A stretch of DNA of 64,000 nt from Saccoglossus kowalevskii (lineage: Eukaryota > Hemichordata > Enteropneusta > Harrimaniidae): positions 1,030,244 to 1,094,243 of the forward strand of contig NW_003119425.1 of NCBI RefSeq assembly GCF_000003605.2, written 5' to 3'. Shown here in pieces: positions 3,513 to 31,000 of this stretch. The translations under genes were made by a program, and so were the position numbers. The number at the start of each line of letters is the position of its first letter. Position 1 is the stretch's first letter. The notes below the pieces were generated by a model, which searched no databases, was not told the origin of the DNA, and saw only the letters and a program-made list of their open reading frames with translations.

Positions 3513-3559
3513 TGCATTTCAAAACCATGCAGACACTGAATTTTCACTCTGGGACGCGA

Positions 3560-4015
3560 TTAACTTTTGGAAGTTGGTTTGTCAGTGTTCTCATTACTAC
3601 CTCCAGGACCTTCATCAGCTGGCACATCTCCGCCCTCAGACTTTCGATCATATTTAGTTTCTGGAGGCGGTGAATCATCTTTCGGTGGTGGCGAATCCTA
3701 TTTGGGTGCTGGCGAATCTGCTTTAGGTGGTGGTGAATCCTTTTTGGGTGGCGGAGAATCCTCTTTGGGTGGCGGTGTATCCTCTTTGGGTGGCGGTGTA
3801 TCCTTTTTGGGTGGCGGTGTATCCTCTTTGGGTGGCGGTGAATCATTTTTGGGTGGTGGCGAATCATCTTTGGGTGGCGGTGAATCCTCTTTGGGTGGTG
3901 GCGTTTCATCTCTGGGTTTTGGAGATGAAATCTTACTCCTTCCAGCATCCATGTCGTCAACCCTTTTCTTTAGACCTTCATGTAGAATTCTCAAATCGGC
4001 TATGTTCTTTCGAGT
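3560..4015 (-). CDS. CCDC154: CCDC154-like alternative last exon C (Pro-rich heptad tail, in-frame TAG)
   Basis: Acceptor TTTACATCTTCAG, phase 0. The head TRKNIADLRILHEGLKKRVD is followed by about 12 seven-residue repeats of the form D-[S/T]-P-P-P-K-x, coded by a 21-bp DNA repeat. A TAG at 3700-3698 interrupts the tenth repeat. The same frame then resumes the repeat and runs 45 more residues, ending in DKPTSKS before TAA at 3562-3560. A single base change from GAG would explain the TAG: polymorphism, sequencing error or a real shorter end. Confidence 0.66.
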
Positions 4016-7000
4016 CTGAAGATGTAAATAAAAAAAGAATATTAAAGTTCTGTACATAACGGTTTTGGTACGCGCAAAAAAAATACAGTTGCACCTGTTA
4101 CCATGGCGATAATTAAGACATAATGTATAGAAAGTTTTAACTAATTATATTTACATTCAGTAAACCTAGAACACAAGAAAGACCTGTATACAAAGTACAA
4201 GCTACAACAGACCATTTGCGAGTTTTTGGTGTGTACCACATTCATTCCATTCTGATTATATCACCAAATTGTAGTCGTTCAAAGCTGATTCGTCATGTGC
4301 ACGATCGGAGCATCATTGCATGCAAATGAGCCAAATAAATGCAATTTTTTTCTGGAATTTGCAGTGTTTCAAATCAAACATTTACCAGATAACATTGGAA
4401 AACGATTTTAGTAATTACATCTACAAACGAGAAAGTTGATTTTATGATATAGTCGGATAAAAATACCATGTGATACAACACCCGCGAGTTGTCCAATTAC
4501 AATATATACATTTTTGTACTGAAAATTAACATTATTAGGCAAAAGTACACTTTACACACATACAAGACGTAACAACTTTACAAATTCATCACAAAAACCA
4601 TGCAGATACAAGACATTAGGAACCACTTTAATACATATACATGCATTATTCCTACTAGTAATTAATTTACCAGTAATTCATTATTACTATATGTGGACTA
4701 GTACGTCACATTTACTAGTATCAACTAGTACGTCACATTTACTAGTGTGTGACATTCATCAATAATCTGTAATTACTGTGTTTACTAGTAAGTGTTAGTA
4801 GTTTGTTATTGCTATGTGTCAACTAGTACATGACATATTTTTTATATAAAAAAAAATTATTGTATTTTTTTTACAGAAGTATGATAGTTATTGATACTAT
4901 TAAATATTTTTGTTATATAGCAGTGAGTCAAAGTTTACATTACAAGCACTTTTATTATAGTTTAACAAGTCCACATTCAATTCTTTTAAGAACTATTCAA
5001 CCAGTTTTTGAATGTATAATCTATTATAATTATGTCTACTATTAAATCCAGTCTCTCTCAGACCAAAGCACCTTTATATTAGTCACAGAGGAACCCAACA
5101 AATTTTGGGATAATTAGAATTAGAGATGAAAGTACGTTGCCAGTGAGCTTATAATCATTGCTTGGTTGCTTAATAGTTGTTATACCATATTGGTGCAAAG
5201 TTTTTATGCGTTTTTTTGTTTTGTTTACTTTGTGTTAATTTTGGACAAAATAGACACAATTTTGTTGCCTCCGTTTGGGTGAGTTTACAAAATTTACATA
5301 GTTGGGAAAGACTTTCTATTGTCCTCCACTTTAAAACCCTAACCCAAACCCTAAACCTCCAGCCCGACCCCCCCCCCCCCCGGCGCCCCAATTCAATTGT
5401 ATACGCGTAATTGTATATAGATAACTACAGGTGTCTTTAAGAGAGGCATATACAATTAACTTGAGGGGTGATGGAAGATTGGGGTAGGTAGGGTTAGAGT
5501 AAAAATTTAAGGATGCAGGTTACAATGAAAGTCTTTCCTATAGTTGCAATGATTCCCAACTACGGAGAGTTAATGACATTAATTACTAAGATATATAGCG
5601 GTCATGGTAAGTAAACTTACAGAACGTCAAATTAGTCACTATTAACTCATTTATATGGACACACTTACAAAAAAGGACGCATGCATTAACATTAACACAT
5701 GGTACAGGGTCTACTATACATTGATTTGACATGAACTCTTACTGTTTCCATGGCCACAGATTCCATTTCCATAGCAACTGCAGTTTGATATTAGTTGTGA
5801 CTCCATCTTTGCAAAGCAGCAATTACAGCATGAGATAATGGGATGTTCCACTAAGGAGATCTTGTAGGGAGGGAGGGGTAGTATAGGGAGGGGTACAATA
5901 CCACAAAAAGGCTATATCTATTTTAAGCTTTTACCTGAGTGAATGAAAGTCTCAAAAACACATGTCATTTTTACAATAAATTACATTATTAATAAAATAT
6001 TCCTCTCCTCTAGTAAGATCGAAATATACCGTTGACCTGCATAGAATTTACATTGAGTGAAAAAGCACGACTCAATATCGTATTGTTTTTAATGCTATTG
6101 CTTTTTACAGTGAATTTCATGAAGGCTTGACTGTTTCTTCATACATAAAATATAAATGTTTTAAAAACTTCAAATGACAGTTGGAAACAACTTGAACAAT
6201 CACAATGCCTTGGCAAATGCGTACCATCTGCACATATAGTAAAAAATTGGCCAAAGATTGAAGAAAGCCCACAAATGACTTATTGGTAATGCGCATTATT
6301 AAATGACAGCCAAAGAAATTTGAAAATCTTTGAATTTGAATCAAGTATGAGGGTTTTCCAGGGTAAATGTTTTATAAATATTTGATATATTTCCATAAAA
6401 AAACATTCATGCCTTCCTGAAAATCACTGTACAATACTCAGAACTTGAGATAAAAAAAAAAACATTTTTTGGTATATTGAATCTTGATATTAGTGACTTG
6501 GTTATATTATTCATAGAGATTGTAAAAAGCAGTGGTCGCATGCTTTCGATTGAATTTAAATTTTGTGTAATTGTATCTGACCTACATTCAAATAAATTGC
6601 TACCGTATGTATAGTATGGGACCCACATTGAATGTACATGGCCAGTCACAATGTCCACTGCACTCAAATCAAATCACTGAGAAAACCAAACCTTTTCTAT
6701 TGATGCATCAAGACAAAATTGAAAGGTGCATTCCATTTTTTTTTAAATTCAGTATATCACAGAATTAGTTGTTTCAGAATCTCAAAAACTTTGCAAATTA
6801 CATTCAATGTGAAGTAGGAGTACCATCAAATAATGCAAGTTAGGCAACCCAGTCCAGCTGGGCAGAGTTAGACAGATCACCATGGTAGTCAGCTGTTTGG
6901 CACAAATACACGACTAGTAATAGAGTGTGGTATACTGGAGAAGCCAGAATTATTCACAGAAACTGTGGTTGTTTACACATTTTCAGTTCAATGTAGTCAT

Positions 7001-10000
7001 GTAATCTTTATACTGAAAAAGTATTCACTGTGCATACACTTGCAAAATGCAACAAAGGTGAACAGTCTATTCGATATCAATACTTTGCAAAAATTATTCT
7101 AAATCAGATTATTTTTTGCTGTCTGCTTTCTTTGAAGACTGTGTATCATCTTTCTTTTGATCATCATTGTCATCATTACTATCCCCATCATCATCATTAC
7201 TGTCATCGTCGTCATCATCATCATCATCATCATTTTCATCTGCATCATCATCATCATCATCATCGTTGTCCTTTTCAACATCCCCTTTCGCATCATCATT
7301 TTCATTGTCATCGTTTTTATCCTTTTTAACCTTCCCTTTCTCATCTTCATTTTTCTTTTCCTCCTCATCTTGACTTGCTGTAGTCTCACTTTCATCATTC
7401 TCGACTATATCTTCAAATTCTTTCATCTGATCACGAAGCTGCTTCAAGGATGTTTCAATTCCTGCAATGTCAGCATTACGCTGTACACACAAAGGGGAAA
7501 TGTTTATTTGCATATTACATGCAGAACATATGTTGATGAAAGAGGATGGAAGTATCCATGGCAACTGCCAAATCAGGACAGCCTGATAAATGGAATGCAC
7601 TTCACTTCTGTAAGTAATAGCCGGATTATGAATGAATACTCATGATGGTTTAGATTGCAGACAGTGAGCAATCTGTGGTCAGTGGCAAGGTAGTTGATGA
7701 TTTTCCAAAGTAGAAATGGGTCACTCCAACACATATTGTGGACAAGATGCAACAGGATCACTCCAAGATGCATTTGTGGTCAAGATGCAGTGTGGTCATT
7801 CCAAGATGTATTTGTGGTCAAGATGCAGTGTGGTCACTCCAAGACGTATTTGTGGTCAAGACGCAGTGTGGTCACTCCAAGATACAACATGGTCACTCCA
7901 AGATGCAGTGTGGTCACTCCAAGATGCAGTGTGGTCACTCCAAAATACAACATAGTCACTCCAAGATATAACATGGTCACTCCAAGATGCAGTGTAGTCA
8001 TTCCATGACATAATCGTGGTCAAGATGCAAATGTCACTCCAAGATGCAGTGTGGTAATTCAAAGACATATTCATGGTCAAGATGAAACATAGTCACTCAA
8101 AGTTGCAGTGTGGTCATTTCAAGAAGCATTGTTCAAGATAGTGTGTGGTCACTCAAAGACCCTTGAATGGTCAAGAAGCTGTGTGGTCATTCCATGGTGC
8201 AGTGCGATGGTCACTCAAAGATAAATTAAAAAACTACGATGTGCAATAGTAATATGTCTTCACATACATGCACCAAGTACAGAAAAATACTCCATATTTT
8301 GAAAATACACATGCTGAGACTCAATAACTTGATAATTATTGAATAGATATTTACATTCTGCTGCAGATCTAACGATCCAGTTATAAATATCAGATTATTT
8401 ATAATATCACATATTTACATTTTTTGTCAGAAATTTCTATGGAATGTATAAAATTTTGCATTTAAAAAAAAAAATTATTGCTTGTCATTTTTATCGGCAT
8501 TTTTATCATCATTTTGCTTTTTATTGCCGGATTTGCCACCGGGTACCCCATCCACTTTCTCCTGTAGTTCCTCAAACAATGTCTGCAAATCTTCAATTTC
8601 TTCTTTGCGCTGTTCATTGGAGGAAAGAAATAACATGCTATATTGAGGCAACATGTTTGTTACATAACAAAAGGTGATGCCATCAATTGGTCAAATTAAA
8701 ACGCATGTTTTAAAGTTGTGTTGTCCTCCATTATTTTATTGAAAGCAATTGACATGAAGAGTCATATATTGACAGTTTATAATGAATAACTATGAATGAG
8801 AGAGATTTCCATAGTTTTAATTGTGATTTAGATTTCAGAATCTTAGGGAGTTGTCAGGGCAACTGTGGTGATTGTAGAAATTTACTATTTGATGACTGAA
8901 GGGTGATACAAATTTGCATATGTTCCCCAAAAAAGATCGATGCTGCATACTAAATTATTTGCATCTTGTACAGACTTTGGGATTAAATTCTAAAACTCGG
9001 AGATGATGCATGAGCAAAATTTGAGGTTTTATAGCTGTGCCTTGTGAATAACCAGGCAGAAATGATCTTGAAGTTATGTGGCGAAACTAACTCACAAATT
9101 AATTCACATGCAAAGCCCTTTCAACGTATCTCATGAGACAATACAACTCTAATTCAACAGTTCATTGATTCCTAGACACACAGCTTGAGTATACTGCCAC
9201 ACATTTTGAATTTGCCAAGAATTTATAAATATTTTTTTTTCAATATTCCAGTCTATGATAAAAATATTTTGCATCTACACTGACATTAAATTTAATTCTG
9301 TGAAAAGTGGCAAAAGTTGTGAAGGAAAAAGTTAATACATCTTAGTTTTGAGAGCACGCACACAACAAATACATTTTAACTTGTAGAAAACTCCTACCAC
9401 TAGATGTAAAAAATAAAAGCTGAAAAGAAAGGGTTATCACAATATCTACAGGTGATTCAACTATTTCTATCCATGAATTAACATTAAAACAAAACAATTT
9501 AAAATAAATGTAAATCACATCTTCAAGTATGGAAACACACATGCATTTGCTCTCATCATGCCACACTTTCAATACTAAGCAAATCAAAAAAAAAGACACT
9601 GTTACACACCATGCTATGCACAAATTAAGTATTCTACCTCAAAAAATAGAATAAGATAGACCAAGGAAATCGGACAGAACACAGTTAAGTTATAGCAACA
9701 GAGGAGCGGAAAATGACGAATATCACAGAAATGGGATATGCGATATGGTACCAAGAGGGAAATATGATTTGAAACAAGCATGTTACAGTGCACAGTCCCC
9801 CCATTGTGTACTTAAATGTTAAAGACTATAAGCATATAGAATTCTGGTTATTATAAAGTGACTACCGGTAATAATAGTAGTTTTAGTGTGTGACATAGAA
9901 TATAACAGCAGAGTTAAAAACTTGCATCTCATAGTATTTTTCACAGGTTATACATGTGACAATAAATGATATCTCATTCATAGCAAAAAAACACATATGA

Positions 10001-13000
10001 ACAGCATAGCACAAATTATAAGTGTGAAGGTTTGTATTCCTAATTATTGTGACTCATAACATGACCAATTCACAGAGTTTATTTGTGTTCAATCTCAAAC
10101 TATACACATTTAAGGATAATTTAACTCCTAGTCTTGTGCATAGTAAACATTTTTCACATTTTCATAACTTTCAGAATTGCACATATGCAAAAGGTATATT
10201 TGAGGTTACAATACTTGAGTGAGCTGATAGGGGGGATTGAGTCAGCCATCTTGAATAGCTTTACAAATGTGCATCAACCTCCTAATGGTTACCCCTTTCA
10301 GCAAATTTGAAGAAAATCAAACATGTGCCAAAGGTCTGGTTCTGAACATGTCAAAATACCTGAGTTTAGTTTTGACTGTAAAACAGTCAGATGATAATAT
10401 TATTGTATGTGTGTATATGTGCCATACACCATCTAAATCCTTCCAAAGTAAATCAGTCAACACATGCACAAGATCTGCTTCTGGACATGTCAAAATACCT
10501 GATTTCAGTGTAATTTCACAACAAAAATGGCCACCAATTGGCCATCTGTGACCAACTCATGAAATGACTGCACGTACATATGTATAAGATAAGGCATTCA
10601 GTATGTGTGAGGTTTGGAGAGAATTGGTTTTGGAATGTCCAGAGAGACTTTGGACGCACATATGCATAAACAGACACTAAACCATAAGATACCCTATTCA
10701 TACTTAGTCTGAACAGGGACACAAAAAAAAAACGATGTTGGTAGCATGAGGCTGAAAGATTTGAGCAGATGAGAAAATTGTAGTTATAGAGGCTTAGAAA
10801 AAGAAATCGTAAAGATAGGGTGAGGGAAAGAGAAATCGTGAAGATAGGGGTGGGGGAAATAAAAATCACAAAGATAGGTGGTATATAGGAGGACATTATC
10901 AAGTAAGTTTCCACAATCATCACAAATATCCTGCATTGATACGTAGACTTGTATTTCATGCACATGTCAGATATACAACAACATGCCAAGCAAAAAAAGG
11001 GCAAAACGCTACCTGTTTCGTTTCATTCTGTATTTTCACATTAAGATGCGATCTTACAGTCTGTACACTTTCATTTGTCTTATCACTCTCCTCTTTCAAC
11101 TGAAAAGTGAACAGTATAAAATTATTAGTAGCCGAACATAAAACAAATTATATGAGCCATCTGAAAACATTCATGATAGAATAAAGATGTAGCCCACAGG
11201 GGTCATTCAATTCAAACAAACAAAAAGTATAAATGATGCAGTGCCGTTGAAATCGTTTTAGTAATATTATTTGAACGGTGAGAGCAAACTTGAAATGGGT
11301 GGTCAAAAAGATGTTTATAAACAAGCAGATTCTCTGTTGAGATAGCTCCGATGTTAGCAATGCACATTTCAATTAAAGAACTGAAGATATCATTAGAAAA
11401 TGAACAATATGTAAAGTATCAAACCAAAAATGACAAAAATATTCATCAAAATTAGAAACTGAAGATATCATCACAAATCTATATGTATAATATCAAAGCA
11501 ATCAGACTTGCGGTTTTCACCACGAAATCGAAAATATCACTTTTTACCAAAAATGACTTACAAAATTTCAGGATCATTCTTGTAAACTGTTTCAACACTT
11601 GTTATATAGTTATGCTTTTCGTTGTGAAGCAAACACGCTAATCATTAATGAACTACTTTTTAATTGTTCACAGCTAAATGTATACCAATCTACCTTTTCT
11701 CGCTTAATGGTATTAAAGGGAGAGATCAAATTTTGTAAATTCCAGTTGTGTACTTACATCATCTACCCTTTGGTTGATCTGTGAGGAAAAAACAAATAAT
11801 GCATTGTTAATGGTACAGCATTTTAACCTTTTCACTACCAGAATTTCTCGCCCAAATTTGTCTGCACTTAATTTCTTGTATTCTAAAATATTTCTGGAAA
11901 TTAACCCTAACTTTGGAGCCAACAGACACAATTTGGGTCAATTTTCATTTTTTTCTCAAAAGATTTGACTATTTTTGTCCCAATCTTCTGAAGGAAAGTG
12001 CAGACCATGAACAGGATTATTTTTGCATTTGTGATGAAAAGAGGAAACTGGTGGTGTAGGGGTTAACCAGGGTTTAACTGGTTCAATAGAGATAAACATA
12101 CTTCAAACTAAACTACCAAATTCCTGTAACCTAAGTAACATTAAAATAACTGTTTATACATATATACAGTGAGTACCGAATACTGTTTTTTCTTGACTTT
12201 GAACTTGCATGATATGAACATCAACAATTCATGCAACACTATTTTGCAAAGGTGTTGATGACCTATGGAGCTGTATCACTTAAAAACACCAAGCTCACCT
12301 TCTTAATATCTTCCTCCATTAGTTCCATTCTTTCCGCTGTCTCTTCATCTAGTTTTCCTTTCTTTCCTTGGGAAAGCTTTTCCTTCTGCGAGACAGGTAT
12401 AGGCGCTGCTGCGGTTCCACCACCATTGGTGATTTGTGTTTCTAGTTTGGCAATTTCCGCTCTCAGTTGCTTGTGTTTTGTGTCTAAATCATGTCTCACC
12501 ATCTGTACATCACGCGTTCTTGTAATTAAATGAAAAAATTAAGATGAAATGATTGGACTTTAAACATAAAGTCTCTGTTGTCTTTTTGGGAAGAACAATG
12601 TTCGTCAACCACTCTAGAAATCTATGCATTAAAGTGGGGGAGTCGTCACATGCGCATGCGTCAGATGGCCATAGCGTGTCATTGTTTACAAACAAGCGTC
12701 TACCCGTGAGCCGTTTTTAGCGTGTGTTGTTATTGGCGCTTGGGACTCAATTGCCACGTGTGCGCAAGTGACGACCCTCCCGCTTTAAGAGAGATGTTTC
12801 ATACCATAGTCACATATCATGGCTAACACATTTTTGACACAAGAGAATTTGTTGAATCTTTGCAAATTTATTCTTTATGATTGGTTGTTGAGGTGTCTAA
12901 ATTAGTTTGTACAAACAGAATGGCTGTCTATTAAAGTGGGGTACAGGTTGTATAATGCTACTATGGAAATCCTCACATTTTTATTCGCACTCAGCAAAAA

Positions 13001-16000
13001 TGCTTTTCAAAGTTGTTTTTTATGTCCATCCATAAAACTGACAGTGTACATACATTACATGTTTATGGTGAACAATTCAACCTTTGACCTTTAAACAACA
13101 AAGTCAACTTCTGTTATCTTTCGCAAAAATAAATCTGCATAATTTTTTCTAATTTTTAAAAAACAAAAAATTTGATCAAGACCTGTAGCAAATTGAAAAT
13201 CATGTTCATTTTGTCCATTATGACCATTTTGTCCAAAATCAACAAAGAAGTTATTAAAAAAATACTGTAGATTACTTTATTTTTGCTTGGAATTTATTTT
13301 TGCTGAAGGGATGATTCCCTGAAAATAAAATCCAGCGAATATACTTTTTTTTCCTATATTTCACATTAAACTCATCAAAAATCAGTGAAAATAAATTCCA
13401 CACAAAAACACCAAAAAAGCCTTTTCAGCGAAAATTAATTCCAGCGAAAATAAAGTATTCCACAGTACATCAAAATGAAACATCAAAATTTCAATGGGAA
13501 AAATTACAGTGATCAAGTTAATATCCAATATTGTTATGGACATGCAGCCAAATGCCATTGTCAATATAACAAACATGTAATCTACCATACATTGTACTTG
13601 GATTACCACATTTTTTGACACATGTAAATCATTGCACACTTTATTATTCTGAAACCTTTACGCATACCTTTCTTTGTTTTCTTGTTCCACCAGCCCCTTC
13701 ATATCTTCTTGTACTTTCTCGTTTGTTCTGTTCATATCAGAAATCTGTAAACACCAAAAACAATGTTATTTAATGATGACAAATGTTTCAAAATCCAGAA
13801 ATGTTTTTCTTAACTGATCTCTGCTTTGATTTTAAATTCATAGTTGTGTTTACTTCCGCATCCTGGGTACTGAATCATAACTTATCAATTTTTAAAACAA
13901 AAATAGCAGCCATAATGGATCAGATCAGAAAGGAAATCGTTCTAGTTTCAACAAAATTGGTCAATGCATATCCATAGGAATGTAGCAAACAAATACATGT
14001 ACAGCGAAGCTATATTCCCGTTTTAAAAACAGGACTATTTTTTTTAAATTAACTGTATAAAAATTTAGTGAGAACAGAGTTTTTTTTTGTAATTTTGGTG
14101 CCAGGCAACAGTTCTGGGCATTAACTGTTATCTCTCCTCAGATTTTTTTTTATCTGCAAATTACAAGTGTGAGTACTGACATTATATTACATTTTGTCGC
14201 AGAAACAACATTCTATGTTTGGGACTACATGACAGGGCTGTATCCACGGCCGTTCAAACGACTGCTCTTATTCAATGTCCATATGCTATATAAAGTACAT
14301 TTACTAGCAGCCAGTTGGCTGAGATAGCTCCACTCAATGCACATTTCAACAAGTAGGGGGGGGGGGGTGTCCTTGAAACTTGAGTTCCAAGTGGCGTATA
14401 CAACAGATTGTTTATTTACATCAAAACACGTGTTCCGTGTAGTGGTAATATGGCCAAAATAAAAACAGTCGTTATTTGGCCATCTTTGATCTGATTATGA
14501 AACACACTGATATGTATGATGTATGTGCCAAATACAAATGAAAATGGTACATAAATTGTGGAAATATAGTAGTAAGGCCAAAGACCAATCGGCCATCCTT
14601 GACCAGATTTTGAAACAAATTGTCATGGACATGCATCCTAACATGTATAAAGTACATGTATGTGCCAAATTTGAATGAAAACTTGCGGTTTTTAAGAAGA
14701 AGTCGAAAATATCATTTTTTACCAAAGATGACAAAAATATTCATGAAAATTAGAGAATTAAAGATATCATCACGAAATGAACAAACCTGAGAGAGGTCCA
14801 CATGTAGTACCTAGATATGTAATATCAAAGCAATTGGACTTGCGGTTTTTATAAGAAGTCGGAAATATCTCTTTTTACCAAAAATGACAAAAATATTTAT
14901 CAAAATTAGAGAATTAAAGATATCATCACAAAATGAACAAATCTGAGAGAGATCCACCCAAGGTACCGGTACCTACATACCAAGTATCAAAGCATTTGGG
15001 CTAGCGGTTTTCAAGAAGAAGTCGAAAATAGCATTTTTGACCAAAAATATTCGCTATAAATAAGACAATTGAACATATCCACAGGAAATGAAGAAATTTG
15101 AGAGAGAACCACACAAGGTACCTTCCTAGAAAGTTTCACAGCTATACAGTTTGTGGTTTTTAAGAAAAAGTCGAAAATGTAAAGTTGACGACGGACGCCG
15201 GATGCCGACGGACAATCAGTAATACTATAAGCTCCGCTTGACTTCGTCGACAGCTGAGCTAAAAATAAAACCATTGTTATAATGAACACTTACTTCAGGT
15301 CCAACATCATCCATTTTTTCTTTCAATTCTTTCAATATCTTATCGGTGCTATCTCTCCAATCGTTAATATCTTCAAGACTTTCTGACTGTGTGTCTGTTT
15401 GTCTCTTTACCCCCTGTGCATAATTACAAAATAACAATAATTATTATACATTTCTGAAAACTGAATTGACGAAGAAATGCATCTATGTAATAAAAATACT
15501 GTGATTGAAATATTAAATTTCATGGAAAACATTCGAGGGGTTCTCCACTTTCCACCCATGACAATTTGTTTCCTGCTCAAATCTTAAGCAACATGGTCAT
15601 CTGCTAAAAATTGACCTAAAACATTTTTATGTTTCCTTTGTTGATTTTGAACCAAATGGACAAAATGTGGCATTGTTTACAAGTCTTGATCAAAATGATC
15701 AAAACAATCACTGGTGAAGCCAAAAACTTTCAGGAAACAGTATTTTTGGCTACTTGCTGGGACTCTCTTGAACAGTGTAATAAAACTATCCCTACATGTG
15801 CAACATATATAAATGTGGTTCCTCAGGATTAGCTCAATGTTACATTTCTGCTGTTTTCTCAACTTCGACTGTTTTTATCGGCTCCTCGTCCGGAATTCCA
15901 CAGCAGCTCGTGCATAGTCCACAGAAATACATTGTACAGTGGTGCTTGTCCAAGCAACATAGAACGTTCTATGACGCAGCTCCGACCCCAAGATTAAGTG

Positions 16001-19000
16001 TTGTTACACAATATTAGATTCAGTGCCTTGGAATTATTGTAGGTGTATGTGTTAATTTTAAAGTGGAAAAAAACATGAAATATATGTGTTACCCTCTCAT
16101 CTTTAAGAGCTTCCATGGTCTGTAATGGACACGCATGAAAAAACAAGAAACATGTACAGAAATGAAAAGATGAACATGCAAAGAAATGTGACATGAGTGA
16201 ATTCAATGTATGACTGTATTTATGGTTTGATGTTTCTACCAATAGCAGAGGCCAGAAATATATTGCATTGAAAGCTCCAACAATTCTAATTTTCATCAAC
16301 AAAGTGTTTATCAAGCAACAGTTGCAGTTATTGTATACTTGATTATTGAAATATGACCATAGACACACCTCGGCCATTTACATAAGCACATGGGCTACTA
16401 ATAGAGTAAATACATGTACCATAAATATTACTGTAAAATACTTTTTCTTGAAATTTATTTTCGCTTACGAAATGATTCAGTGAAAATAAAATCCAGCGAA
16501 TATACCTTTTACCCTATATTTTACATTCAACTTGCCAGAAAACAGTGGAAACAGATTGCATACAAAACACTCCAAAAGTTTTTTCAGCGAAAATTTATCC
16601 CAGCTAAAATGAAGCATTTCACAGTAGTAGTGCAAATACTTACATGACCAGGGTGTGTCTATGATCAAACTAAATTATATTTAAATGATCCAGCATTATA
16701 TACGCACTTCTATGGAAGATTTGCTTCTAACAAATATGGGTATTATTAAAAGTATGAAGCATTTTTAGCGGTCTTGGTCTTGGTACACATACATGGTGAT
16801 TTCAGAACAGTGAATTTCAACATTGGTAGAAAATGTTCTATATTTTCAACTATATTTTCAATGCTAATTTTGAACCAAATTTCCCATTCAAAACCTTTAT
16901 GTGTTGACAAGTTGAATCAATCATGTGATAGTGAAATGATATAATTGGAGTTCAGCATGGATTTGTTGCCGAGGATCTGCCGGTTTTATACATATAACAG
17001 AAAAATTAATAACAAAAGTCAAAAGTCTCAAATACTATAGTGGTATTTGTGGAGCGAGGAAGAAGGAAAACCAAATTATAAATAACTTTTAATATTGGTA
17101 TACATAAGTTGTTAAAAAAAAAAAGAAAGCATAACAAAATAATTATGATTTTATTTATTAAAATTACATGTAAATAGCAACTTAGTATTACAGATGTTAA
17201 ATGTATTGCAGTTACACAAAAAGAAACGCAAGTTTCAAAGTACGCAAAAACATATACATTTCATGACATACTAGTAATACAAGGTGCTGTCAGGCTCAAA
17301 TTAAAATGACAGACTAGATGAACAGCAGTACCCATTATCGAAGATTCAAGTCATAGTTACAATAGACATTTTTGTTGAGTAAGTTAAGTCTTGAATATAT
17401 CCACCAAATTGGACCGCAAACCCACACATTCTTTTTATCTATATAGATATACCTGGCGTGTAACTGCAATGCATTGTGGGTATATTTAAAGGTTTAACCC
17501 TGTTTTGCTACGCATTATTACTTTTATAATTACACCCATTTGCTAAGATATTAAAAAGACAATATTGACAATATAAACTGTTTCATTTGGGATAATAATA
17601 GGAATAACATGTGCATGCGCACTTCAAATTACTGATATGAGTAAGTAAATTAGACGGCTATGGTCGTCACAATGTGTCAGTTGTGAGATGGGTCCCATTG
17701 CACTTATATAACATCTGTAAAATACAGATTTTATGTACATTGTTTGTTGACACACTGTTTAAACACCAATTGCAAATTGACCACTGCCCTTTACTGCTAT
17801 GATTGCCCCTAAAGATTTTTTTTTTATTTTATGACATAATTATTCATTCATATCAAGATAGAATATAAAGCAAATTTATTTTAAAATACACAAAGTAATC
17901 AATATTGTCTTTTTAATTAATTTAATAGTAATTTAATTAATATCTAAAGCTACAAGATTGAAATGAACAATGTATACCCGTAATGCCTGTATGACATAAG
18001 CGATGAAATGTACATAGAATATATCAATCATTCACCGATGATGCGTACCAGATGTAAAAGATGAACGGCAAACAAGATGACGGAGAAAGAGAAAAAAACA
18101 CACACAGAAATGAAACACATAGAACAATATACATGTAGGTGATATATACACAGTGTAATTCATGTCTCGTTACAATGTTAAGTATGTGTGCGAGTGCGTA
18201 CATGTATCTGTGAAATAAATGAGTGACAATTTAAATGATGTAATTGAATTCAAAGTATGTATTCATTTATCTTAAAAACGATTTACAGCGCAATTTTATA
18301 ACAGCTCGAAAATTAATCATACCAGCTGACAGATAAAGGTCAGATATGTGTAACTGACCATAATATTAAGTGGTTAATTATGATTACACATTTCCGTTCC
18401 TAGCTGTTCAACATAAATCTAGAATTTTTCAATAGATATTCTAGTTGGACATCGGGTGAAGAGCATTAATCATACCAGCTGACAGATAAAGGTCAGATAT
18501 GTGTAACTGACCATAATATTAAGTGGTTAATTATGATTACACATTTCCGTTCCTAGCTGTTCAACATAAATCTAGAATTTTTCAATAGATATTCTAGTTG
18601 GACATCGGGTGAAGAGCATCAACTATCTATTTGATTTCCAGATTAGGATTTAATTACTTGGCCTTTAAACGATTATGGTTTTTACATCGTGAATGATGGA
18701 AACAGATTCTATAAAACTGATATACTGTAAAATACTTTATTTTAGCTGGAAATAATTTTCGCTGAAAAGTCTTTTTAGGTGTTTTGCATGGAATTAATTT
18801 TCACTGATTTTTGACAAGTGGAATGTAAAATATAGGAAAAAAGGTATATTCGCTGGATTTTATTTTCACTGAATCTTTCCTTCAGCAAAAATAGCAAAAA
18901 TTAATTCCAAGCAAAAATAAAGTATTTTATAGTACATTGCGCATCAACATATATGCTGTGCAACTGCCGTATAAATCACGTTCTCTATCAACATAACTAT

Positions 19001-22000
19001 ACATAATTACACAGTAAAGAAGACAAGTTTTATTCACTCTGGTTCATTGTTAATCGGCCTAAAAATGAACTTGACATAGTGATATTGTGATTCACATCAA
19101 TGTATTTCTCACTCACCTCCGCTACTTTCATATCTAATAACTCTTCTTGTTTTTGTACTTTGGTATTAAGCGCCATCACCCTGGCATCCAAATCTGCTAA
19201 ACCACGAAGTCCACTCTGGTTCTGGTCATCTAACAGAGACTTCATTTTGTCTTGTGCCTGACAACATGCAAGAAGGGACAGCAGATTCAGTAATGACTGA
19301 ATTCCTCAGTTTCAATGCACAAAATATATACCATATATACTCGTCTGATTTAGTGCCCAGGGTACTCAAAAATAGCTTAGGTGATCACCCTCCCCTTTTT
19401 AAAATTATCCAAATGACAATTTTTGCTCACCATGTGCTAGATTAGAAAGAATATTAAGTCTTTTAGGGGAAAATAAAATGCAAAATGAGTTGCCTTGTCA
19501 TTGATTACCACAACACTTTCACAATGAAAAAAACAGGAACTCCCAATACTACCGTAAGCAATTTTCCGACATGATATTTTTATGTACAATTTTACCTGCA
19601 ACAACGCTTTCTGACCTGACAGGTCAAGTCTGTTATTAACCAATCAAAATGATGTGTTGTACTGACGCAATGTTCTGAGCATTTCTGAATATCGATGATG
19701 GCATTTTTCACCATGCAATGCGAAACTGAATTGTTGATGTTAAAATACGATCTAAAAAAGCTAAAAAATCAAAAAGCCATTCACTCACCGAATACGACAC
19801 CTCATTCACCTGTTCATTTATCCCACCAATTGCTTGCTGTAAAGTTGCTATGGCGACACCAAGTTTTTCTTGTACATCTTCTATTTTGTCTTCTATGTGT
19901 CTGTCTTGTAATTGTCTTTAAGACAAACAAATATTGATCAATTTAGATTAAATTTAAAAAAACACGATAAAACATTGGTTCTGAGGAAATGAAAGTCTTG
20001 TTCATTTTGGCACTATCCACAATATAAGTGAAGCTTGTGTAATAAAATCATCTCTGCCTCTCAAATAAACAGAAATAAAAGAGAATGAAGAAAAAACAAA
20101 ATTGACACCATTACCTTGATTTGATTTCTGCTTTCATTACTTGTTCAAGTTGCTTTTTCGTCTCAGATTGTTGTTTTTCTAACATTTCAATAGCGTCATT
20201 TACCTTAATGAGTCCGTCCGTCTGTTTGTGGCTTGTCAACTGTGGAGAAAAAATGAGCGAAACCAAACTAAATAGATTGTCAGCAAATTAAATTATGCAT
20301 ATGACAGAATCTTTTTTTTTTACTAAAGTCAACTTTTACAAAATAAATATTTTTTTCAAATAATTTGATCATTACCTGTAGCCATTATGAAATTAAGTCC
20401 ATTTGGTCCAAAATACATAAAAATACGCAAAATATTGCACCAAAATGAAATACAAAATGTTGGTGTTCAAAGATTAACACATTGCCTACTGAAAGCCTCG
20501 ACAGCCTCTATTTGAATAGTAAATAACAGTGTCGGCAGATGATGCAATACTTGAGAAATTTTCATCAATTCATTGTCCAGTCAAATTGCTCATTATTACT
20601 GCATCACAGGCAAAATTGTACAGCAGAAGTTTTCTTCCAAGCCAGAGATTGAGCTGATATTTTACTATCTGAAGTAATTGAGGCAAGATGTTTCTGAATT
20701 ATAAAATATTTTGTTTTATTGGTGAAACAATGGCTTCATAAAAGCTAGGGGCTTCAAAGCAGCATGGTAGATTTTGATGGTATAGGACGTACCAATACAT
20801 GATATGAAACACTGGCAATAAAACAAATACCAGTGTCTCATTATCGTTTACTCATTTCCACAGTATTTAGTCGTAATTAGTTTCAGTTGCAAAATCTTTT
20901 GAATTTATCTGTTGTTTTACTTATCTGATCCAATCAAATGTATGTATTATTACCTTGTGACCTTCCCGTACATTAAGGACTTCATCTTCTGTTAATTTTT
21001 GCAACGCAGACCATCGCTTCTCATTTTCTTCCCTCATAGCCTGCTCGTGGGTGATTCTGGCAGACTGCTCAGCGTGTAGCATCTGAATATGAAAGTTATG
21101 TCAAACAATAATTTTCAGATATATCAGTAAATTTTTCAGCTAAAAGGGAATAATGACAACTGTCTAAACATGTTACCAACTGAATTCATTCAGACAATAG
21201 ATACGCCACTCCCATTCTAACCAGCTTGTGCAATGTGTAATTTATGTATGTGCACCACAGCAGTATCAGAACTAGTTTGGGAAAATACAATTCTAGCTAA
21301 CAATTTGGATAGATATGATACCTTTTCTACATTGGCAAATTTTTGTTGCGCTTCTTCTCGAAGCTTTATTTCTTTCTGTAAAATTTTCTTGCTGACTTCT
21401 TCCGCGATTTCCGCAATTTTTCCTTGCATTTTAACTCGTTCGTTGTCTGTCGCATGTTCTCTTTCTCGCTGGATTTGATCCAGTGCGTGCATGGCCTCAT
21501 CTCGTTTCCGTGCCTGTTCGTGCACCTGGGCTTGCATGTCATTCATCCTGTTGAAAGAAGGAATATATGGTCACGGTTTAGATGGACCAACTGCTTTTCA
21601 GAGATGGTATAGCACCCTCAAGAGTGGTATGTGGAAAGTTTACTTTACCTACAGGGGGCGCTCTACAGATAAGACCATTATAGTTAGGTAGGGCTCATAG
21701 GAATACAATTTTTGTTTTATTCAATTCAGGACACATTTCAGCAATTGTAGATGAAATGCAAGACGTGGCTCTGAATTCGCCCATTGATGATGATCAACTT
21801 TCTTACCTCATATGGATTTGATTCTCGTTTTGCCTCCGCTCAGCTTCTTCTGATGTCATTCTATTCCGAACATCTAGTAAAGCATCTCGAACTTCTCCTA
21901 ACCTAGAATACAGATGAACCAGACAGATATATGTAAATACTACCTACACTTGTTTATATACAACACACGTAAATAAAATTGTAAATAAAAATGTCCTTTT

Positions 22001-25000
22001 GTGTGACCCTTTCCTTTTAATTATTATCACTGACGTAATTTTAATCTTTGATGTGCGATATTAAATACTCAATTCGCAAAATAATGACCAGCCCATGAAA
22101 TTAGACAAGTTTAATATTTTTGCTGGGTATCCAAACTGACATCAATAACATGAGAAATTACAAAATCAAATCTACGTCACACAGCTACCGAAACAAAGTA
22201 AACATGCTTTAATAAAAGCAGAGGATCTAGGATGCTTGTAAGTTGACCAATCATGAATCTTGTCTCATCTGTCATTGAAACACTCTTGTTTTGATGGCGT
22301 AGAAGTGAGGAGAAAGTTGTACTGCAGTGTTTTACCACCAAGGACACCAGGAATCAGTTATTTTTTACACACATTTGTATTTCTACTGAGTGGGCATACA
22401 AGCTTAAAAGTCACCAAGTCAGTGAATATTGCAGTTTTGTGTGTTTTTGATATGTATAATGTGTTGCACCCTACTGAAAGTACGGTGTACTGTCAGTACA
22501 TCATTTCCATCATGGACTAGTACAATACATGAACAATCTTATTTTTGTTGTTACAACTAATCTATCAGTAGTAGTGAAAGGTAATCATGCACTATTTCAG
22601 TGTATTTCAATTGAATATGCAGTTTTGCTAAGAACAAAAAAGAAACACTTGAACTCATTCAACGAACAATATTTTCAACTGAAAAATAATTATAAGTCAA
22701 CTCGGTCACTTTCTAAAAAAATACAACCAACAAAATTTTCCCCAAATCTTAGAAGAAACTTTGATCAATACCTGCAGCCAATGAAAAATTGGTTCCAAAT
22801 TTGTTCCAAAATAAACAAAGAAATTTTAGAAAAATACAGAAAAATGTGCAAAATGAACCAATTTTGGCGGGAAAGATGGTAGCATCCAAAGTGTTAAGCA
22901 TTTTATCTGACATGTAACTATTGTTGTTCATTACGCTTTAATACACTGGTAGCTCAAGACATTGTCTGCTGACAAATATTTTCCCATTCATTTTAGCTAT
23001 CTGCGGAGCATTAAAGTGACATTCTATTTCAGTATTTGAGACATAAACGAAGAAATATGTACATTTTCACAGACAAACACAAGTCATTGCAATGTAAGAG
23101 GCAGAGGTTGTTGCCGTCATGTGTGCATACGATTACATGCATTGTACATTACCCGGTACATGAAATCTGAACACATTCAAATGTACATGATTATGTACCT
23201 TAATAGTTTGGCATTGCTTAAAACATTCACTGAAATACTAGTATGCAGAATGATAAAATACGAAAAAAATAGCACAGATTTGAATCTATCACTAGACTAT
23301 CACTATATACCAAGACGTTTATCAAAAATTTACCAAAACTATAAGCCAATCGACTACAGGGATATTAGTTACACTATATTATACAGCATTGTCACATTAC
23401 GCTACCTGGCATCAATTTGTGTTCGTATCATGTTAGTAGATTGCTCAGTAGTTGACTGATTCTCGTGGTGTTTGCGTTGATAGTCCAGCTACATCAGAAT
23501 TAGTGCGAACAGGAAGTAAGCATGCATGCATGGGAGAAAGACGATGTGATGATTGTATGTACATGCATGACAGTGGTTGCATGCAGCTGGTTGTCGGGAT
23601 CACTTTCTAGTAGATCTCGCACAAGGCACTACAATCTTTTGAAAAGATTTCACTTTAAAGTATGTACTAAATTGTCAAGTTCAGGCACCATCCACAAAAT
23701 AGATCCATTTATAATTTGCTTTTTTCCTATTATGGTCAATTTTTTTTAAAAAAGTTTGAAGTAATTTTGTCTGTTTCATTCAAAATTATGACTGAATTCT
23801 GTGAAAATTACAGAAACTGTGAACAAAATTTACCCAAATTTGTGTGGAAAAGAAATTGGCGCTCAAGGGATTAATGCATGACCATGATGAAATTTAAAAT
23901 ATTACCAGAATGTCTGAACGAACGACAGGATTGAGATACATCTAGAAAGTGAACACAGATCACAATTTGCTGACAGATGGAAGCTCTACTGAACACAACA
24001 TATGTCAGCACAGTTTCTATGGTTAACTACAATGTATGGCATCCATAGGACAACACATTCTATAGGTTTCTATGGATTCCACACTATACATTCTATAGGA
24101 ATCTATGGTGCCCACGTAACTATTCTATAGTTATCCATGGATTCCATAAGAATACATGCTATAGTATTCTATGACATCCATGTGACAACATATTCTATAG
24201 TTATCCATGGATTCCATAAGAATACATGCTATAGTATTCTATGACATCCATGTGACAACATATTCTATAGTTATCCATGGATTCCATAAGAATACATGCT
24301 GTAGTATTCTATGACATCCATGTGACAACATATTCTATAGTTATCCATGGATTCCATAAGAATACATGCTATAGTATTCTATGACATCCATGTGACAACA
24401 TATTCTATAGTTATCTATGTATCCATGCGACAAAGCATTCCATAGTTATGTATTTCCCACCAATACCTTACCTACTACTCATAAGAAGTCGGAGTTGCGA
24501 GACTTCCTGCTCAGTGAAGTTGCGATCATCAACATGTTTTCTAGCCTCTACAATCTGTTGTTTATAAAAACAGTTACCACGGACACCAACATGAAAGCGA
24601 GAACACAAACATATAAAATACAAACATTACATGATAAACGACCAGAAAAACACAAAACATAAAATTATGTGCACTGTGCCAGTCATTGTTTTTTTTTTTG
24701 ACCGATAAAATGTTGTAGTGTTTTCTACGAATATCAAACTAAGAGAGTTGATACAGTTTTACAGAAATGTCGACCATAAGATTTTTATTTCAATTCAGTA
24801 TTTTTTATCAAATACACATACTGTTAAAGTTGTCCTCTTAAAAAAATTATTGGTGCTATTATGTAAAATATTTGATGGACTGCAGGAAAAAAAATTGTCA
24901 GGATTTTGATGTGTTTTGAATTATTATTAATACGACCCTGAGTAATTAGGAACAAAAGTGTTTTTTTGATGAAATCTACTAGTATATGCAAAGAAAATTC

Positions 25001-28000
25001 AAACACACAAATGGGAATCCAAAATGATCACCAGCATTATTATGTATTTCCCACAATTCATGCAAATTCAATTATAACATTTCACATGATTCAAATAAAA
25101 AGTTGTGATTCGCTATCAAGATGTCTTTTTTTGCAGCATCCTCTATGCGCGAAGTTACATCCAATCACAGTCCAGTCATTTGCGTAATGGTGACATCTAT
25201 TTGTACTTGCTGCAATTAGCCATTTTGAGTTTAAATGTGTTTTTTTTTATATTAAATTAACCGTAAACCACATTGATGGGTTAGCCTAAAACAATAGAAG
25301 GATATGATGTTATATATATATATATTATAATTAAAACCTGGTCAATATTAGCTGGTTAAGATATTGCGCATTGTGCCCTTCCTTAATGGCCTCTGTGCGG
25401 TCAGCCGGTACATTTATTAAATTAATCCATTATGGTCGACAAAACTGTAGCAAGTCAAATGAAGGTGAAATAATAATGTGCGGTAAATGTTTCTAAACCA
25501 TATTCAGTGATTTTCCACACTCAGAAAAAAGCAAACATACATATGACTGATGCACAGTGCTTCTCACCTACACACCCCTATTTCCCAGTGGTATGGTCAA
25601 ATTTTTATCATTTTTTTTTTTTTTATTTCTATCTCAACTCAACACTTGGAAATAGGAGGGCGAGAAAATTAAGAATTAACAATTAGGAAGCGAGGTTGAG
25701 AGCATGATAGTACCAGAACACACGATTCAGATTCTTACCCGCTAAATATTTCCAACAATAGATTGCATTGCACAGAAATTAAACCAGGAGGTAAGAGTTG
25801 AGTTAAAAATTGCATACAATAGCGCCCTCACAGTCCACAATGTGAACTGAATAGCGCCCCCATAGTCCATGTTGCTTTGTTGCTTGTTATTTTTGGCGAA
25901 TCAAATCATCATAAACTGCTTAAAGCTGAATGCTAGTAACACAATATTTTTCTAAAACAAATTTACATGACTGTCTCCATGACTATTATTTTTGCATGAA
26001 TTTTTATTTTCAACATTGCACCAAAATATCACCACCTCAATCATTTTTATGTTGGTATACAAAAGACATACGTGTAAAATAAAAGTGACGCAAAACTTAC
26101 AGCCTGCCTATTGTCTTCTTCAAGCCTTTTGGAGCGCTCTTTCAACTCGTGCATAATAGAATTAAACTCCATTTGTTGTGTATCTACTTTGCTTTTTAAA
26201 GTTCGTACTTCGTCAACCATCGTGGTCGTAGCACGTTCTAGTTGGTCGCGCATTCGGTTGGCTTCGTCTAAATCATTCCGAAGATCGGCAATTCTGTAAT
26301 ATAAAAGCGATTACTGAACTCAATACAATTCAAAATAGACTTCAGTTTGTTGTTTCAATTTTTTTTTCCAATATAGACTAGACCGGAAAAGTAAAAGTAA
26401 AAAAAAAATATTTTGACCTGAAAACTATTCTTTATAAAGCTTCATCTAATCAGAGGATATCAAACAATTTTGTTCAGAAATGAATAATAATACTGAATGA
26501 TGGTGATTCATGTCTTTTTATTTAATATGCAAATTGTGACCCTTTAACTCATAAGTTATGCACATTTGATGACCCCATAACTTATTAGTTATAGAAATTC
26601 CATTGATCAAAATATACTTATAATGGCAATGAGTAGTAATACTCAGTCAATACATCAAACATTACAAAATCCATACACATAATAATTGGCCAAAAGTGCC
26701 ATTCATTTACTTAATGTGTAGGATTTACGGCAAAGGTTACAATATATTTAAAGATTACACTATGTAATGTATTTTATTGTGTGTAATTTAATGAATCGCA
26801 TCAAAGGAGCATTTACTTCCACAATGTATTGAAAGCACAGTTTTATTGCACAATAACATGTTTGAGTCAATGAACTGTGAATCAACAGCTGATTCTCACG
26901 ATGCAGTGGCTGTGAGTTTGCATGCCGCGAATGTGAATTACCAATCAGCTGATTTTTGTCGTGCCCTGAATGTGAATTAACAATCAGCTGATTCTTGTCG
27001 TGCCCTGAATGTGAATTAACAGTCAGCTGATTCTTGTCGTGCCCTGAATGTGAATTAACAATCAGCTGATTCTTGTCATGCCCTGAATGTGAATTAACAA
27101 TCAGCTGATTCTTGTCGTGCCCTGAATGTGAATTAACAGTCAGCTGATTCTTGTCGTGCCCTGAATGTGAATTAACAGTCAGCTGATTCTTGTCATGCCC
27201 TGAATGTGATTTTACAATCAGTTGATTCTTATTGTGGGGAATGTGGATTAACAATCAAATTATTTTTGTTGTGCCCAAAATGTGAATTTACAATCTGCTG
27301 ATTTTTGTCGTGCCCAGAATGTGGATTAACAATCAGCTAATTCTTGTTGTGCCCTGAATGTGAATTAACAATCAGCTGATTCTTATTGTGCCCTGAATGT
27401 GAATTAACAATAAAATTATTTTTGTTGTGCCCAAAATGTGAATTTACAATCTGCTGATTTTTGTCGTGCTCAGAATGTGGATTAACAATCAGCTAATTCC
27501 TGTTGTGCCCTGAATGTGAATTAACAATCAGCTGATTCTTATTGTGCCCTGAATGTGAATTAACAATCAAATTATTTTTGTTGTGCCCAAAATGTGAATT
27601 TACAATCTGCTGATTTTTGTCGTGCTCAGAATGTGGATTAACAATCAGCTAATTCCTGTTGTGCCCTGAATGTGGATTAACAATCAAGCTGATTCTTGTC
27701 ATGCCCTGAATGTGAATTAACAATCAGCTGATTCTTATTGTGCCCTGAATGTGAATTTACAATCAGCTGATTTTTGTCATGCCCAAAATGTGAACTAGCA
27801 AATAAAACAACTTACTTTGCATACTGTTGGTCTCTCCTAGAGAGTATTTCTTGTTGACTGCCTAATACTGCTTGCTCTACTTGTTTCGTGTGATTAACTA
27901 ACGCTCCTACGGCCGCTCTCTCATCCTGCACTTTCTCCTCTGCTCGTTTAAGTCTTGCTCCCAACTGACCAATGAGGTCATTGCTGGAACGTAAATTTTC

Positions 28001-31000
28001 GGCAAGGTGTTGTCGCGCTTGTCGTTCAGCGGCTAAAGTTTCTTCTGTTTTTCGGTGGGATTGTTTTAATTCTCCTGTTGATAGAAACAAATATCAGTGA
28101 TATTGATACAAACATTTCCAAAGATTCATCAAAGTTGTACTCTTAAATCATTCCAAAAGTTGTATTTGGGTGAATATTGGATTGTCTATGTAAATTGCGG
28201 GAATTATGTATTTAATGTGCAAATTTTTAATGATTTTGAACATTTTCAAACAATTTGTTTGCCCATTCGATTGTTTGTGCAAAATTTTATTTACTAACGT
28301 TTTTAAATAGTGTTCTGACGTGCATGGATTCAACTCCATTCTGAAATTATTGCATTCGCAGAAATTCAGAACACTGACAAATCCAGAGAGTGCTAGTATT
28401 TATTTAACACTCACATTCAGAAAAAACAAAAACAACTATAAAAAAAAAGACTTTTACCGGTGATAAAATACAAGAAATAACTACACACTTCATGAAAGTG
28501 GTGAGAAATAACTGAACAAAGCCTTGCAAGTTGCTGTAAAGTAGAATTGGCAACAGTGGATAACAGTTAGATCGCACACACACACCATCACAACTCTCCC
28601 AAAAATATTACCTTGAAAGACACTATAAAAATACACTACCGGTAAATAACGTTAATCAGTAATAATTTTGTGCCAATCATACAGTACTAATTAAAAATTA
28701 CTAATTAACAAATACCTTGTAATCTAACAACTTCTTCTAAAAGAGCTCTATTTGATCGTTCTGAAATTGACAACCTCTGCTCCAATTGATTCATTCTAGT
28801 GCCTTCGCTGTAATCCTGTATACTGGAAAGCTGCGATTTGCGACCACTGAACGGCACCAGCTGATTGTCAAAGCCGGGTGGTGCCGGACTAGATGAACCA
28901 ATATTAGGTAGTGGAGCAGCTAGTCGATTTGAAAATGGCCTGAAACATAAGTATAACAAAAAAAAATGAATTGTAAATCAAAAAAATAAAATGGTTGGAA
29001 TATATTCACCTGCTTGTTAGTTGATATATGCAAACATCAACAATTATTGTTTTTATTTAACCTTTTCACCACCAGTTCCCTCTTTTCATCACAAATTCAC
29101 AAAATAGTCCTGTTTATATATAGTCTGCACGTTCCTTCAGAAGATTGGGACAAAAAACGCCAAACTGTTTGAGTAAAAACTGAAAATTGTGTCTGTTGGC
29201 TCCAAAATTAGGGTTCATTTCCAGAAATATTGGAGAATATAAGAAAAAAGTGAAGATAAATTTGGGCGAGAATGTCTGGTGGTGAAAAGGTTAACACAAA
29301 TATCATATCAGGCAATACATATGAATTAATGTTGATGAGGCTACAGTTCTCACATATCGCTTAGAAACAGACTGTCAAGTTGGAGACATGAATGCCTCTT
29401 GTTTCCATAGAAACTGAGGCTCTAGTTGTATCATATAGGTTATTGACACATGTTGAAAAAATCATTCACGTTTCAGAAATGGGTTATTGTTCTGCAAGTC
29501 ATGTACATGTAGAGATAGAGCAAAGTGTGAATCTGTTCATATTCACGTACAGTAAACTGCTTTTCTTACATGACACATTTTTGTGAACGCATCAAGATTG
29601 TAGTGAGAAATAATGATACTGTGTGATGAAACTCTGTGTTGTTGAAATCTAAATCTATAATACACATGTGAACAGTATTTCATTTTTAAATGTTCTACAA
29701 TCCCATGATGCAATGGACATATTGTTTCCAACTGAAATATTTGCAAATTATACTATGGTTAGTTACAAATACTTTTTAGAATAATTATTAACCATACTTG
29801 AATTGTGATTCAATTACCAAAAAATAAAAATTACCTACAGGTATATTTCTAAACACACAAATTTGTTTGCTTCGGCATCATTAAACATTGGCTTTCAAAA
29901 TTGAAGAAGATGTTTCCCACACTAGTACATGTATATATATATATATTATATTTTGTATCTATCAATACTACAATAATATCTGTATACTGGCATGGTTTTT
30001 TGTTTTTATTTCAAGAGTAGGAGAAATAGTATCAGAGGCATGGCAGAAAACATAAACTTCTCAATGAATTGACAATGTATATATTAACCACAGGCTGATT
30101 TAATATATGCCAGACATTCAGTCAAAATAGGCATATCATTAATAGACAAAAGATGACTTTTTTCTTTACATTATTCACTTTATAAGCGATTCAGTCCACA
30201 TGAATTAAAACGTGTATATACATATTCACTGAGTCGCTTTTAATACAGCAGTCATATCAGTCACCTTGCAGGCAATTAACACACCTCCAGTTTGTTTATA
30301 CATCACCATGGTTACCAAGGCTGTGTAATATTCAGCAACATGTCATATTGTTAAATTAGGAAAAAGAAAAAAATTGATGTCAAAGTCAAGTTTATTTGAA
30401 TCCACAACGTCATTTTGTTTTTAACAATGCCGACATTATTTCTTATTTGAGTGTATTTGTAATTGCCTCGTTAAAATACATGTGTAGTTCATTTCTCAAT
30501 TGCCTCATCACTATTCAAAGTTTTTCTGAGACTGACACCTTGAACTGAAGACGCAGTGATGGAAATTGATCATCTCCCTTTTTCATCTCTTTATACTAAT
30601 TTCCTGTCGAGAACGGTACATTCTATTGTTAGAACAAAATAAAATGGTAATTTTTAGTGAAATTCACATACTCAAACAAGAACAGCTAGGACGGAAAAAG
30701 GGGTATTTAAAGAAAAAAACACTGTGTGTGCTTACATATATGTTCGGGATTCAATGTACCTTTTTATAGAAAGCAAGATTTTTTGCTAAGTCAAAGTAAC
30801 TAGTTTATAAATATCTTTATATTTGACCAGGACAACAGTACAAAATACAAGGTGCACATGTGTACATAGATGGTCTTATTTTCTGGGGAGGGGTGTTCAA
30901 GGTAATAGGAGGGGCTGCTTAAATTTATCATAAAATGAAATAATTTTTATACATTACATCGAGGTGCATAATTTGTAATTAATAGTGAGTATGATTACAT

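Follow-up and report, generated by a model that had tools for sequence, protein, structure and literature searches.

A CCDC154-like coiled-coil gene of Saccoglossus kowalevskii with three probable alternative last exons and a predicted exon choice within the rod

The stretch of DNA considered here, referred to below as the window, comprises 64,000 nucleotides of the hemichordate Saccoglossus kowalevskii (contig NW_003119425.1, positions 1,030,244 to 1,094,243). Its minus strand carries a series of exons, picked and curated by hand, which encodes a coiled-coil rod and is followed by three further exons, termed A, B and C, each of which closes an open reading frame. These exons probably make up one CCDC154-like gene, extending from about 50.6 to 3.5 kb, in which A, B and C compete as last exons. 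A pair of similar exons inside the rod, e04 and e05, presents a second choice; it is the clearer case of the two and was absent from an initial annotation of the window.

The CCDC154 profile of Pfam (PF15450) matches the joined rod over residues 149-618 of 714, scoring 110.9 bits when e05 is included and 108.2 bits with e04, against a cut-off of 28 bits. The only other Pfam family found for the rod at E <= 0.01 is SF-assemblin, which falls under its own cut-off; no tropomyosin family is matched at this threshold, nor is any solved structure. Relatives were sought in the bacterial and archaeal and in the viral collections and none were found, as expected of an animal gene. In the 572-Mb genome the rod has 14 matches, all within its own gene (best 20 candidates scored), exon C is found in one place, and searches with the rod, exon B and exon C gave no second-haplotype or duplicate copy of the gene for comparison. 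The PF15450 match stops at profile position 465 of 530, also when tail A or C is attached, and the terminal exons lie beyond it. Once the likely first coding exon, e00, is added, all six forms (e04 or e05 combined with A, B or C) are open frames, of 805 (A), 884 (B) and 866 (C) amino acids.

According to the initial annotation, A, B and C start in phase 0 behind good splice acceptors and each runs to a stop codon, and both statements are borne out. With a splice matrix built on the gene's other 17 exons, whose acceptors score from -12.0 (e05) to 12.3 bits when each is left out in turn, the acceptors before 8609 (A), 7480 (B) and 4015 (C) score 7.81, 5.09 and 9.55 bits, respectively. Each exon has a phase-0 frame matching the donor of e17 (11099-11013), and a stop is reached after 44, 123 and 105 codons. 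One feature of tropomyosin-type last exons, namely the same entry phase from one donor together with a stop of their own, is found in all three.

The first 22 residues of each exon, here called the heads, keep the heptad register of the rod. A hydrophobic core is present, with I, L, V, M or F at all six of positions 5, 8, 12, 15, 19 and 22 in A and B and at five of the six in C, which has His at position 12. In codon use the heads look coding: among 2,917 non-coding windows of 22 codons free of stops, a score as high as that of the head occurs in 0.07% for A, 0.38% for B and 0.34% for C, and the scores of heads A and B lie inside the range of the accepted exons of the gene. On the same measure the first 22 codons of e01 fail and e05 is weak, 1.9% of non-coding windows being equally high.

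The heads had also been said to align with one another. This holds for A and C, which share 8/22 residues, weakly for A and B (4/22), and hardly at all for B and C (3/22). As background, 47 register-matched windows of the same protein were compared in 994 non-overlapping pairs, which share stretches and are not independent. The A-C score of 39 is reached by none of these pairs, and by 0.6% of them when the core positions are left out. For the three heads jointly, the observed sum is reached by 69 of 154,866 random triples, or by 1,664 without the core, and a shuffle restricted to the non-core residues gave 0.012. In tblastn searches of 84 kb, the results of which cover the three last exons, e04 and a portion of e05, A and C are mutual best non-self matches (E 0.010 and 0.003). 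After C, the closest match of A falls at the end of e13 (E 0.48), which indicates that the head motif recurs within the rod.

Several observations weigh against a common origin of all three heads. The A-B similarity is equalled by 1.6% of the register-matched pairs, and by 6.4% outside the core, while that of B and C is chance-like (23%, and 40% without the core). For B the best non-self tblastn match falls within the rod itself (12487, E 0.54), with C following at E 26 and A missing from the list. At the DNA level the likeness is weak: ungapped shared bases number 31/66 for A-C, 35/66 for A-B and 21/66 for B-C, with shuffle P values for local alignment of 0.03, 0.07 and 0.24, and the upstream intron flanks, compared as a possible trace of duplication, are without clear likeness (P 0.05 to 0.97). 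Moreover, every residue originally cited as shared belongs to the heptad core, so the register by itself accounts for part of the likeness, and a shared register could come from function alone. It may be, then, that A, B and C are alternative last exons which were recruited independently, and that their likeness reflects the need to carry on one coil from a single splice site in one phase. This is the most serious of the alternatives, and an unlikely one, given that the A-C similarity stands above the whole register-matched background and that the same gene harbours a clearer exon duplicate in e04/e05. The exon duplication originally proposed is therefore retained for A and C, which are probably duplicates judging from their sequences; B would either have arisen by the same duplication and then diverged, or have been recruited separately.

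Beyond the heads, the net charge of the tails is +2 in A, -37 in B and -1 in C, and 31 of the 83 residues of the C tail are prolines. The tails had been described as completely divergent, which is overstated, as D, N and K are abundant in the tails of A and of B alike; the B tail, put at about 70 residues, counts 101. Repeat growth of the tails had been proposed as well, and what is found in B and C agrees with it. A repeat scan of positions 1-30000 placed a (GAT)n array at 7160-7264, within the B tail, and an 11-copy tandem array of a 21-bp unit at 3666-3898, within that of C, and these arrays support the view that the two tails grew out of repeats by micro- and minisatellite expansion.

The in-frame TAG of C and the poly(A) signals of A and B are further points against three alternative last exons. 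Exon C had been taken to extend to 3560, which is the last base of a TAA at 3562-3560. Its first stop is an in-frame TAG at 3700-3698, 45 codons earlier, inside the repeat, at a position that in sibling units is a sense codon, whether for an acidic or for another residue. The repeat array and the frame continue through the TAG to the TAA, and after the TAG the coding score is 0.298 both in frame and one base on. The TAG could mark a genuine shorter tail, or be a polymorphism or an error. In favour of C as a last exon, an ATTAAA lies 46 nt downstream of its TAA. For A and B, neither AATAAA nor ATTAAA occurs within 900 nt of the stops (the nearest are at 966 and 1,015 nt), TATAAA at 71 and 96 nt being the only near signal.

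An AATAAA is found on the minus strand at 7508, which is 28 nt before the first base of B and 966 nt past the stop of A, in the would-be 3' UTR of A, and is followed by a GT-rich stretch. Were this the signal for the end of A, one stretch of RNA would be contested between cleavage for A and splicing to B, although this is speculation.

A gene with a single normal last exon, most likely C, the remaining two being cryptic or dying, would agree with C having both the strongest acceptor and the best-placed poly(A) signal. It would also agree with the B tail being mostly GAT-rich repeat, which is common in the genome: all 41 other matches listed for exon B fall in the GAT-rich part of the query, at 329-497 (40 of 61 candidates scored). 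Nevertheless, such an arrangement is quite improbable, since the head coding scores of A and B are those of accepted exons and C itself contains the in-frame TAG.

Further candidates for terminal exons were sought by combining splice acceptors with open reading frames (ORFs). A scan for acceptors scoring 5 bits or more that open a phase-0 ORF of 40 codons or longer, over 160,598 strand-bases (the window, L009 and L010), returned seven entries with at least 5/6 core positions: A, B and C, together with 40016, 39860 and 8360 on the minus strand and 45875 on the plus strand. When the absence of proline and at least 7 charged residues were added, criteria chosen after A, B and C had been seen, these three alone remained in the window and in L002-L010. 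The entry at 8360 was considered as a further last exon; it passes the heptad test and has too few charged residues for the stricter one. In the interval from e17 to C, 68 candidates were found in the three phases; the coding threshold is exceeded by A, at its acceptor and again at an inner AG, and by B. Downstream of C, the first 3.5 kb contain 35 candidates, none of which looks coding, and of 130 in the next 20 kb, where N stretches were skipped, six weak entries pass, none of them coiled-coil-like. These acceptor/ORF scans gave no convincing extra last exon or downstream exon.

The scans also bear on the idea that the heads are internal cassettes, with the first 63 nt of A (three heptads) ending at a donor at 8546 and joining B or C, and with B and C using phase-1 donors at 7389 and 3936. 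Donor-like sites are present at 8546 (phase 0, 3.98 bits), 7389 (phase 1, 6.64 bits) and 3936 (phase 1, 5.72 bits), and past the TAG of exon C at 3600 (phase 1, 7.86 bits). However, the site at 8546 scores lower than 16 of the 17 accepted donors, coding-looking phase-1 entries number 0/24 between e17 and C and 0/11 in the 3.5 kb after C, and the two weak entries in the next 20 kb are not coil-like, which leaves cassette heads very doubtful. That A, B and C are separate short genes downstream of the coiled-coil gene is hardly credible, for although their open frames extend past the acceptors on the upstream side, as far as 8690, 7639 and 4144, each exon is headed by an acceptor, has the phase of the e17 donor and carries on the coil register, and the exons alone match no Pfam family at E <= 1.

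The proposal that A, B and C are alternative last exons is supported by their phase, their coding scores, the family of the gene, its single place in the genome and the absence of a coding-looking continuation in the 3.5 kb after C. On these grounds it is very probable that all three are last exons belonging to a single minus-strand gene of the CCDC154 type.

Table 1. Exons and predicted features of the CCDC154-like gene, in window coordinates
Feature	Positions	Strand	Remarks
e00, likely first coding exon	50509..50648	-	ATG at 50648; phase fits e01 at 28939
Coiled-coil body, exons e01 to e15, CCDC154 family region	12299..28939	-	
e04, one of two similar exons	24472..24554	-	83 nt, phase 0 in, 2 out
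e05, the other of the pair	23406..23488	-	83 nt, phase 0 in, 2 out; weak acceptor
e16, 21-nt microexon, exactly one heptad (INQRVDD)	11758..11778	-	phase 0
e17, last exon upstream of A, B and C, common to all	11013..11099	-	87 nt, phase 0 in and out; donor CAG/GTAGCG
Probable last exon A: 22-residue coil head and 22-residue K/N/D-rich tail, TAA	8475..8609	-	
Probable last exon B: 22-residue coil head and 101-residue acidic tail (40 Asp, net charge -37), TAA	7109..7480	-	
Probable last exon C, to first in-frame stop (TAG 3700-3698): coil head and proline-rich heptad repeats	3698..4015	-	
Exon C frame beyond TAG: 45 codons, first two more proline-rich units	3560..3697	-	to TAA 3562-3560; ATTAAA at 3513

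The pair e04 and e05 has the features of mutually exclusive duplicates: the two exons are adjacent and similar, have equal length and phase, and exactly one of them gives an open frame. Their 28-residue products have 8 identical residues. Of 188,805 background pairs, which likewise overlap and are not independent, 4 attain their score of 41, and in the tblastn search each of the two has the other as its best non-self match (E 0.022). Since the frame breaks when both are included and when neither is, and is open with either alone, exactly one of the two must be used; the possibility that they are consecutive exons is thereby ruled out. The fit to PF15450 is likewise best with one copy, falling to 98.8 bits with neither and 105.5 bits with both. 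Two observations tell against the pair. The DNA likeness is weak (shuffle P 0.07 for the heads and 0.97 for the flanks), so that any duplication must be old, and the acceptor of e05, at -12.0 bits, is poor.

Four copies of TGCATG, the motif bound by RBFOX splicing factors, lie within about 60 nt on the minus strand (23585-23526), 38-97 nt upstream of e05. Outside this cluster no 120-nt stretch of the minus strand has more than two copies, and 200-nt windows with at least four make up 0.2% of the sequence, a figure that includes the e05 cluster itself. A role of the cluster as a splice switch is plausible.

The 21-nt microexon at 11778-11758 is exactly one heptad in length, and skipping it would leave the coil intact; its use could be optional. 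A second microexon, of 27 nt and in phase 0, lies at 16119-16093 on the minus strand. An intronic minisatellite of 22 copies of 39 bp occupies 26929-27801.

The surroundings of the gene include, on the plus strand at 53.4-59.5 kb, a gene for a WD40 protein, presumably GRWD1, and on the minus strand at 60.8-63.3 kb one for an iron-only-hydrogenase-like protein (PF02906, PF02256), which we take to be CIAO3/NARFL. The window contains no RNA family at the curated threshold and no tRNA. On the mitochondrial contig (17,037 bp), COX1, identified by a Pfam match, is on the strand opposite most other genes, the names of which we assigned from their translations. AGR codons are read there as sense; positions that we assume to be conserved lysines are AAA, and presumed conserved isoleucines look like ATA, readings which point to a hemichordate.

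Most likely, the 5' splice site of e17 is joined to a single terminal exon out of the three that compete for it, each of which ends in a separate stop and presumably has a separate poly(A) site. The exon chosen would be entered in phase 0 and would prolong the coil by about three heptads in register, so that the rod is complete whichever is taken, and each choice would fix one tail, either the short K/N/D-rich, the strongly acidic Asp-run or the proline-rich heptad-repeat one. A and C would have arisen by exon duplication, and B likewise followed by divergence, or by separate recruitment, with the B and C tails then extended by micro- and minisatellite expansion. The choice between e04 and e05 would exchange 28 residues inside the rod. 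The isoforms may differ in tissue use, and the tails may affect what the rod binds. A broader suggestion, to which we would give somewhat less than even weight, is that of a combinatorial rod in which two mid-rod exons are combined with three terminal exons and the one-heptad and nine-residue microexons are perhaps optional. A shared 'coil splint' of three heptads would hold the register, letting micro- and minisatellites become functional tails of differing charge and stiffness.

The initial annotation regarded the arrangement as undescribed, which is wrong for its kind, as tropomyosin already offers interchangeable, homologous last exons on a coiled coil. Of 236 human tandem-duplicated exon events, 77 are C-terminal, and three tandem 3' exons encoding homologous C-termini are present in each of TPM1, Drosophila Tm1 and C. 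elegans lev-11 (PMC9741552). The final exon of Tpm1 transcripts is 9b or 9d, and the gene has mutually exclusive exons elsewhere (PMC8419188). The S. kowalevskii gene resembles these genes in its coiled-coil rod, its three tandem 3' exons and its predicted mutually exclusive duplicates elsewhere (PMC9741552, PMC8419188). Unlike in tropomyosin, only about three heptads of the ends are similar, and the tails that follow differ from one another, counting 22 residues in A, 101 in B and 83 in C, with two of the three repeat-built; the rod, too, fits the CCDC154 profile rather than any tropomyosin family. It departs from that profile in its terminal exons, which lie past the matched part. The proteins of Drosophila pip and PGRP-LC are not known to be coiled-coil rods with repeat tails, unlike that of the gene described here. 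Both nevertheless show the mutually exclusive choice of tandem ends that is predicted for it, in the form of tandem terminal-exon clusters in pip and of 3' variable regions in PGRP-LC (PMC9013439). A literature search found no paper joining CCDC154 with both 'alternative splicing' and 'isoform'. Within the reach of that search, this gene and its form, a splint with repeat tails, look new.

If transcripts confirm the predicted exon choices, the gene would represent, outside tropomyosin, a coiled-coil rod whose ends can be swapped and which has an either/or exon in its interior. Such a gene would further illustrate a route from simple repeats to protein tails, in which a short helix keeps the register of the rod and the remainder is free to expand. 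A mouse CCDC154 mutant has osteopetrosis and hearing loss, and the main text of the paper describing it does not contain the word 'isoform' (PMC7889813). CCDC154 is little studied, but its mutation harms bone and hearing, so that isoform choice in a distant relative could hint at the role of its ends.

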